Shown in pieces: positions 53,101 to 56,100 of a DNA stretch of 64,000 nt. Origin of the DNA: Liolophura sinensis (taxonomy: Eukaryota; Mollusca; Polyplacophora; Chitonida; Chitonidae); NCBI RefSeq assembly GCF_032854445.1, contig NC_088304.1, forward strand, positions 32,358,810-32,422,809, in the 5' to 3' direction. Positions within the stretch are counted from its first letter, which is position 1. Each line of letters starts with the position of its first letter. The notes below the pieces were generated by a model. The model worked only from the letters and a program-made list of their open reading frames with translations, did not search any database and was not told the origin of the DNA. Made by a program: the position numbers and the translations under genes.

Positions 53101-56100
53101 CGTGTTAACTGGCTTACTCGCAATCAATCCAAACAACCTTGTACGACATAAGGGGGGTTTGGCTGGACACGCCCAAAACATTACTAACACGCGGTTTCAC
53201 TTTAGCTGCGTCTTTTTCAACGTTTGCAAAATTGTTGACATTTAATTCGTGGAATTGAAATTCGAAAACCAGAGTACTGTATAAGAACGGCGCTGGAAAC
53301 GTCCAGTGTGCACCCCCCATGTGGTACAGTTTTCTTCGGATGACTACACTTGTCATTCCATGCAGTAGAAAAGCTGGCGAGCTGGAATCTACTGGTCACA
53401 GGGTTTATTTTTTTTTCTGGTTCAGCCCGTAGGTTTCTCGTTTGAGTTATCATCAAAACGACATGGCCAAATCCCCCTTTAGAACACACGATAAAAAGGT
53501 TGGCAGGACTGAAGACGAGCATGCTCAAAGACATCCACTTCCTGCTGGCGGACACCGGCCACATCCCGGCCACGCCCCTTACCTGTTCAGAGCGTTCAGC
53601 ATCTCTATGACGACGAGAACGGACAGGGCCATTGTCATGGGCTCAGGAGCCCCAAAGATGGCACAATCCACGCCGGCAAACATTTCATCTTGTGCCAGAC
53701 ACTGAGCTTGGTGGGTCTGTGGGCAGTGAGGCATGGGGAATTGAGGAACCAAAGAACGGGAGAATTAGAATAACCATCTGCACTTACCCCTGTCTGTCAT
53801 CGCTCATCTAACCTCAAGGATATAGCACAGGTTTCATGCTCAAACCATTTGACATTTTTCAAGCTGACATGGCCTGCAGGCCCAAAGATACTTTTACATC
53901 CTTGAATTTTAATTTTCTTTCTTTCATAAGAAACATTCTCTTTTCTGTGTCCACAACAGAACAGTGGGAAAAATAAAGAAATGAGAATATATAATTTACC
54001 AACTTCAGCAGATTTCAGAAGAATCATAATTGTAGAAATTTTTTTTCTCTTATTCTTCTGGTTTTCGATATACGTGTCGCGACCTTGTGGCAAAGGCTAG
54101 ACTGACAGACGGACAGACAGAGCTACAGTGCATCATCAGGTGAAAATTAATGAGACTTAGTATTACCTGTTGAGAGCGTTAAGCATTTCAATAGTTACGA
54201 GGACCGACAATGCCATGGTCATGGGGTGTGGATTGTTAAATATACCACAATCTACGCCCTTAAACATCCTCGGTTCAGCTGGACATTGCATGTGATGGGT
54301 CTGTGTAAAACAACAGGTGTCAAATTATCATTCACGTTTATTTATCTGATTGGGGGGTTTTATTCTAACTGTGCTTGGCAGCATTGTTCTTAGCCGACAG
54401 CTGTGAGGTTTGTGGAAGGAGGAAACCACTGGCTTTGCCATGCACCTGACTAATCTCCTAACAAAGCCTGAGCCAAATCAGCAAGAACTGGATTAGAGTA
54501 TGCCACTTAGCCTGTCATTTGCAGTACAACAGTGTAGAAGAAAACAAAATTTCTGGGATAAAGTGATGAATAATTGATGTTCAATAAAGTAAAACCTAAC
54601 TAGAGTGTTTTTCATTAAACAAAACAAAGCTGGACTTTCTAACAATTCTTATTCCTTCAAACATCCCAAAGTTTGAGACTTAGCAGTGGGTATGCATACC
54701 CACATTCACCAAAACGTTCAACCCAAAAAACTGAGGGCAAATGAAAACAATTCTCCTTACAGAATAATACTTTGTGAAGAAAAAAAATTCTTTTTTGGAC
54801 TTTGCTCCCATGAATGTTTGTGTTCTTCTTCACTACATAAAAACAGAGAGACTTTAATACTAATAATCTAATTTCTTTACTTCGGTTTTTCCTGAGGTTA
54901 ACAATCATCATTTCATTGTGCTGCTCCGACTTTAATCCCCAAAGCTTGATACAGATGTACATGTACATCACAACTCTGTGGCTTATTTATTTATCTGATG
55001 GCTGTTTTACATCATACTCAAGAATATTTCATTAATACCACGACAACCGCCAATATGGTGGAAAGAAACCAAACAGAGCCCAGGGGAAACCCACGACCAT
55101 CTGCAGGTTGCTGTAAGACATTCCCAGGTATGGCTGGAGAGAAAGCTAGCATCTGCTGAACTCCAACTCACAGCGCCTGCATTGGTGAGAGCCTCCTGGG
55201 TCATTGCACAATGTAGGTACACTAACCATCTCAGCCACAGGGGCCCAATTTTGCTTTATTAATGTGACAAGAGCCTTGTCCTGTGCACACGCAGTACATA
55301 CCAGCTGATAGTAGTTGAGCTTGGGACCATGCTCGTACACCATGAACCACCAGGCAGCCGCTCCCACTGTGGCACACCCCACGTACACTGCAACAAAACA
55401 ACAACAACATCAGCCATGAAATCCATGTCCGCGAGACCAACAGGGACATCTGCATCTTAATCACTCGTGTTAAAGTCTCAATATCATTCTGAACAAAATT
55501 CATGTTGGAATTGGAATGCATGTGTTTTGCATCACATGAAAAGTATCCCTTCACTGTTAAATCGGTTTAACATATAGTGTACTGGAACAGATTTAATGTA
55601 TCGTGTACCGGAACAAATTTAATGTATAGTGTACCGGAACAGATTTTAAGGATAGTGTGCCAGCACAGATTTTAAGGATAGTGTACCAGAACAGATTTAA
55701 TGTATAGTGTACGGGAACAGGTTTTACGTACAGTGTGCCGGAACAGATTTAAATTCAAACAACTGAGACATCACAATATGACATGTACTGATAATATCGA
55801 CCATAACAATAGATTGATCCTCAAACAACTGACAAAACTCGCAAAATGTTATAACTAGCCAAACCTTCCTTTTCAACAACCTGACTACAAGTGCACCACT
55901 AGCAGGCTAGGGGCATACCACAAGAGAACTGTCAACCTAGCTTGCAATGAAGTAAGGTTCCACTTATCGGAATTAATCATCACTGCCTGAAGCCTTGTTG
56001 GTAATATTTCAGCGATTTTGTGACAACCATTTATGGCAATCTGGTTTTGTGGCACTTCTGACGTTATTTTGCTTAAGTAAATTTAATCTGCTTACACAAC

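Follow-up and report, generated by a model that had tools for sequence, protein, structure and literature searches.

The window, a 64,000-nt stretch of contig NC_088304.1 from Liolophura sinensis, carries on its minus strand a large part of a gene that we assign, on the following sequence scores, to the type IIA calcium ATPases, that is, to SERCA. The gene model was built after the window had been extended into the neighbouring DNA of this contig. It has 25 coding exons with consistent splice sites and a single open frame of 1,021 aa, and runs from window-equivalent position 108319 down to 50414, with eleven coding exons lying beyond the window, upstream of exon 9. Isoform A, the protein that includes the first exon of the pair described below, reaches 1180.4 bits against the SERCA-type model TIGR01116 (NCBIfam; cut-off 703.4). 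It stays under the cut-offs of the PMR1-type (595.1 vs 798.3), PMCA-type (443.1 vs 507.05) and Na,K/H,K-type (438.5 vs 946.1) models, and its best solved relatives bear the names SERCA2 and SERCA1. The phosphorylation motif DKTGTLT is present in the model, and Glu908 of M8 and the luminal cysteine pair are present in both isoforms. The exons that lie in the window are collected in Table 1.

Table 1. Exons of the SERCA gene within the window and the intron that separates the alternative exons A and B
Feature	Position	Strand	Remarks
Exon 9 (DKTGTLT motif)	63600..63730	minus	gene model
Exon 10	62800..62888	minus	gene model
Exon 11	61340..61442	minus	gene model
Exon 12	60472..60729	minus	gene model
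Exon 13	59793..60011	minus	gene model
Exon 14	59377..59499	minus	gene model
Exon 15	58798..59010	minus	gene model
Exon 16	57336..57429	minus	gene model
Exon 17	56936..57062	minus	gene model
Exon 18	56246..56448	minus	gene model
Exon 19 (M7), upstream neighbour of the pair	55302..55387	minus	ends in phase 0
Exon A, alternative, covers the M7-M8 luminal loop plus most of M8	54300-54167	minus	134 bp, loop net charge 0, Thr906 (SERCA1 numbering)
Intron between A and B	53717..54166	minus	450 bp, GT-AG
Exon B, alternative, same segment as exon A	53716-53583	minus	134 bp, loop net charge -4, Val906 (SERCA1 numbering)
Exon 20 (M9), downstream neighbour of the pair	51058..51175	minus	118 bp, completes the split Ser codon with one base
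Exon 21, last coding exon (M10 and hydrophobic tail)	50414..50617	minus	stop codon included

Several further observations concern the structure of the gene outside the pair. A 28.7-kb intron (window-equivalent 78185-106909) sets the first three coding exons apart from the rest. The intron between exons 16 and 17 (57063-57335, minus strand) resembles a minor-class (U12) AT-AC intron: it begins ATATCCTT, carries CCTTAAC near its end and ends in AC, motifs that we take to mark this class. No frame-keeping GT-AG pair lies within 9 bases, and the AT-AC splice yields TASEMVLADD as in SERCA2. Two tandem arrays adjoin acceptors in this gene. One of them, with a 78-bp unit in 12.4 copies (57445-58413), is intronic, between exons 15 and 16, and stops about 15 bases from the exon 16 acceptor. 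The other, with a 37-bp unit in 4.5 copies (50609-50771, minus strand), stands before exon 21 and repeats the acceptor of this last coding exon, so that five identical TTTCAG/GCCATTTTC acceptor sites lie within it; splicing to any of the four upstream sites (exon starts 50763, 50728, 50691 and 50654) would give Ala-Ile-Phe and a stop, and a pump without M10. Inside exon 21 there is a candidate donor, GACG/GTAAAC at 50499 (minus strand), directly after KYTD, the point at which other SERCAs branch into their C-terminal splice variants, and the long hydrophobic tail encoded by this exon may form an eleventh helix. A fragment at 69426-69349, once read as a SERCA exon, was rejected for lack of a consistent splice.

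The main finding concerns exons A and B, two adjacent homologous exons that share the same neighbours, exons 19 and 20, within this one intact gene. Both are directly preceded by AG and directly followed by GT, both enter in phase 0 and leave in phase 2, and both encode 44 residues and contribute two bases to a split Ser codon. They are identical at 32 of the 44 residues and at 90 of the 134 bases, which means that 33% of the bases differ. Adjacency, homology and equal length, phase and splice-site type are the criteria by which mutually exclusive pairs are recognized by Pillmann et al. 2011 (PMC3228551), and the pair shows all of them. When exon B was used as a tblastn query against 93 kb, exon A was matched with E 5.5e-18, which excludes chance likeness. 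When each of the 25 exons of isoform A was searched against 163 kb, exon A matched exon B. Of the 24 other coding exons, 23 match only themselves at E <= 0.05, bar one extra match of exon 11 (15 residues, E 0.045) that we ascribe to chance; the 6 residues of exon 2 are too few to be scored in this search. A four-sequence alignment searched against viral and prokaryote contig collections, whose holdings are viruses and prokaryotes and not animals, gave 81 and 159 pattern matches and no confirmed relative.

The reading frames argue that the two exons are used one at a time. With exon 19 joined to either A or B and then to exons 20 and 21, the frame is open to the normal stop. If A and B are both joined, the first stop starts 173 nt before the exon 20/21 junction, and if neither is joined, it starts 112 nt before that junction. 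Nonsense-mediated decay acts, as a rule, on messages whose stop precedes a junction by more than about 50 nt. By this rule both wrong products, the message with A and B and the empty message, are expected to be removed. Because both exons or none would give a frameshift and a message expected to decay, exactly one of the two fits in each message as judged from the frames, and joint inclusion or skipping is predicted to be non-productive.

As to how the choice might be controlled, the 450-nt intron between A and B and the AG-free zones of 43 nt before A and 59 nt before B speak against the sort of steric block that is reported for OGDH and would here prevent A-to-B splicing, and the 59-nt zone gives no sign of a distant branch point before exon B. 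The RBFOX-like motif TGCATG flanks the pair at 54444, 53364, 53092 and 51208, but it is not enriched around it (4 sites in 4,244 nt vs 25 in the enclosing 32,583-nt stretch), and we do not propose RBFOX control. Pairing between introns scarcely goes beyond that of shuffled sequences, with a best duplex of -35.6 vs per-shuffle bests of -30.5 to -35.0 in 11 shuffles, and we do not take it as evidence. By a hand-made consensus the donor of B (9.0) scores above that of A (7.0), and by a leave-one-out profile built on only 12 other sites, with many boundaries one base off, the acceptor of A (0.09) scores above that of B (-3.76). These scores do not point consistently to one exon, and we claim no default exon.

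At the protein level, A and B align to residues 871-914 of SERCA1 chains and 870-913 of SERCA2, a segment that takes in the luminal M7-M8 loop, the largest of the pump's loops inside the store, and the greater part of M8. The two isoforms are identical at 1,009 of 1,021 residues. Both loop cysteines (Cys876 and Cys888, SERCA1 numbering) are kept in A and B, and so is Glu908, which we take to be a calcium ligand. Of the 12 differences, all but one are located in the 26-residue segment of the loop, and the remaining one is in M8; the chance of at least 11 falling in the loop is 0.007. All nine differences between the SERCA1 and SERCA2 segments also lie in the loop (9/26), and the M7-M8 loop is, on these alignments, variable in SERCAs generally. 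The net charge of the loop is 0 in A (2 acidic and 2 basic residues) and -4 in B (4 acidic residues), and the vertebrate segments have -5 (SERCA2) and -7 (SERCA1). The sole difference in M8 is T906V in exon B, two residues from Glu908; Thr906 is common to A and both vertebrate segments, and only B departs from it. Exon A and exon B thus agree with the original prediction, made from the letters of the window, in their coordinates, lengths, phases, shared residues and neighbours, in the frameshift on joint inclusion, in the conserved cysteines and calcium ligand, in the more acidic loop of B and in the single exchange in M8.

What such a change of charge might do is suggested by a 2025 study of human SERCA2a, which reports that acidic residues of the M7-M8 loop govern the response to luminal calcium and that some luminal calcium is needed for optimal transport (PMC11826342). 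Leucine at E877/D878/E883, or at all five loop acids, lowered transport mainly at intermediate or intermediate-high luminal calcium (PMC11826342). The C875A mutation abolished expression and transport, whereas SERCA2b work cited there found that the loop disulfide inhibits the pump (PMC11826342), so that the redox role of the loop is disputed. Since A and B change the charge of the loop and keep both cysteines, exon choice may tune luminal calcium feedback, and by analogy with the human pump an effect of the switch on luminal regulation is plausible. The charge maps imperfectly on the published mutants, because the acids of A and B stand at partly other positions: of the five acids tested in SERCA2a, A keeps 878 and 886 and B keeps 886 only, the other acids of B are at 879, 880 and 894, and 877, 881 and 883 are without acid in both exons.

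We propose, and consider rather probable, that A and B are an old tandem duplicate used in a mutually exclusive manner, and that the choice between them tunes luminal calcium feedback in dependence on cell type. In this proposal an old tandem duplication of a SERCA exon would have given rise to A and B, both presumably expressed, and each message would receive exactly one of them. The choice would swap the luminal face of the pump, which would be neutral with A, where Lys takes the position of human Glu883, and four units more negative with B; B would also place Val instead of Thr906 in M8. Exon choice may then set, by cell type, how strongly luminal calcium speeds the pump, and the animal can probably make pumps with a neutral or an acidic loop facing the store. 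A bolder form, which we put forward only tentatively, is an ancient and regulated luminal-sensor switch of SERCA in which exon choice sets whether the pump responds to store calcium at all and also retunes calcium site I through the exchange of Thr906 for Val.

Codons differ at 16 of the 32 residues common to A and B, 10 of 15 fourfold sites differ, and dS is 1.8 by LWL85 or 3.3 by ML (it is not computable by NG86), with dN of 0.25 to 0.29. As proteins, A and B agree with each other at 32 of 44 residues and each agrees with the vertebrate SERCA1 and SERCA2 segments at 30 and 29 of 44, which puts the two copies almost as far from each other as from the vertebrate pumps. Synonymous sites near saturation together with a conserved protein indicate that the pair is old and that both copies were selected for most of that time; purifying selection has acted on both exons over most of the history of the pair. 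Mutually exclusive use, the interpretation offered in the original prediction, is thus supported by anatomy, reading frames and the pattern of divergence. The way out that the prediction had allowed, namely that one copy is a haplotype artefact of this assembly, is contradicted. That two alleles were placed side by side is so improbable that it can practically be set aside, since the two exons lie on one contig in one gene with the base difference given above, their flanking introns are unrelated (mutual blastn matches of only 11-16 nt), and a search of the 609-Mb assembly with the 901-bp stretch from this locus gives a single match at E <= 0.001. It is also very unlikely, in our judgement, that the duplication left behind an exon that is dead or out of use. 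We placed all 44 base differences on one copy as neutral changes in 20,000 runs from either exon, and in 0 of 20,000 runs were 32 identical residues reached (means 17.4 and 17.9), with only about 40% of runs free of a stop; A and B themselves have no stop and no indel, and their splice sites are intact at both ends. When 33 of the 44 differences were assigned to the neutral copy, the count was again 0 of 20,000, and neither copy can have been neutral since the duplication. When 22 of the differences were neutral, however, 1,397 of 20,000 runs (7%) kept 32 residues, so that a late disuse would look similar and a recent loss of one exon is possible; the splice-site scores, which single out neither exon, would also fit with a dead copy.

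If both exons are in use, their choice could serve something other than luminal calcium. The loops might dock different luminal proteins, such as oxidoreductases, calreticulin or calsequestrin-like proteins, or might meet the C-terminal hydrophobic tail, and the two exons would then be kept for partner choice. The concentration of 11 of the 12 differences in the loop is in keeping with this idea, as are the long hydrophobic tail encoded by the last coding exon and the reported action of ERp57 on SERCA2b, where it targets the loop's two cysteines (PMC8148124). A and B have the same cysteines at the same spacing, however, which leaves the redox target unchanged, and the loop differs between vertebrate paralogues too, at 9 of 26 positions; we regard partner choice, with any of these candidates, as rather unlikely. 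The opposite emphasis would make the M8 change decisive: T906V beside Glu908 would alter calcium site I or a proton path, the loop differences would be drift, and the two pumps would be predicted to differ in cytosolic calcium affinity. This fits with the departure of B alone from a Thr shared by A and both vertebrate segments, and with simulations in which Glu908 starts a proton release path (PMC8037123). Against it, no SERCA paper with Thr906 or T906 is found among the best 10 of 19 matches listed, and we think this explanation unlikely.

If the proposed luminal-sensor switch is real, the control exerted by the loop, so far seen in engineered human pumps, would be a natural property that tissues can select. 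The pair would also be a ready-made experiment of nature. Apart from the M7-M8 loop and a single residue of M8 the two pumps are the same, and comparing them in one cell type would serve the question of whether the pump is regulated by luminal calcium and by what means.

Splice diversity of SERCA has been described at the C-terminus, as the original prediction had stated, and the three SERCA forms of Pinctada fucata are said to differ only there (PMC3527596, PMC6987452). Like those C-terminal variants, which include vertebrate SERCA2a/2b and forms of Artemia, C. elegans and Pinctada fucata, the isoforms of Liolophura sinensis would arise from one gene by alternative splicing; in contrast to them, an internal pair of homologous exons swaps the M7-M8 loop and M8. 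Among the matches listed (the best 25 of 1,677, 15 of 418 and 12 of 60), titles and the beginnings of abstracts report neither an internal nor a mutually exclusive exon for SERCA or other P-type ATPases, although unpublished isoform annotations may exist, and the main text of the human survey by Hatje et al. 2017 (PMC5740500) has no word starting with ATP2A or SERCA. Mutually exclusive exons are a known kind, and it is the internal SERCA pair that is absent among these matches. In length, splice-site pattern, phase and homology the pair resembles the mutually exclusive tandem exons that Pillmann et al. 2011 (PMC3228551) defined and that Hatje et al. 2017 (PMC5740500) surveyed in human, and joint inclusion breaks the frame here too; for A and B the exclusive use is predicted from the DNA. 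Exons 4a and 4b of OGDH are reported to be likewise a mutually exclusive choice (PMC7969005), and there the choice sets the calcium sensitivity of an enzyme; the enzyme and the mechanism differ, since in OGDH a distant branch point enforces exclusion, whereas exon B of SERCA has a short AG-free zone. The closest functional likeness is to the engineered M7-M8 loop mutants of human SERCA2a, which concern the same loop and in which loss of acids reduced the luminal calcium response (PMC11826342). Those mutants are laboratory products, whereas A and B are a natural pair that changes partly other positions of the loop and keeps both of its cysteines.
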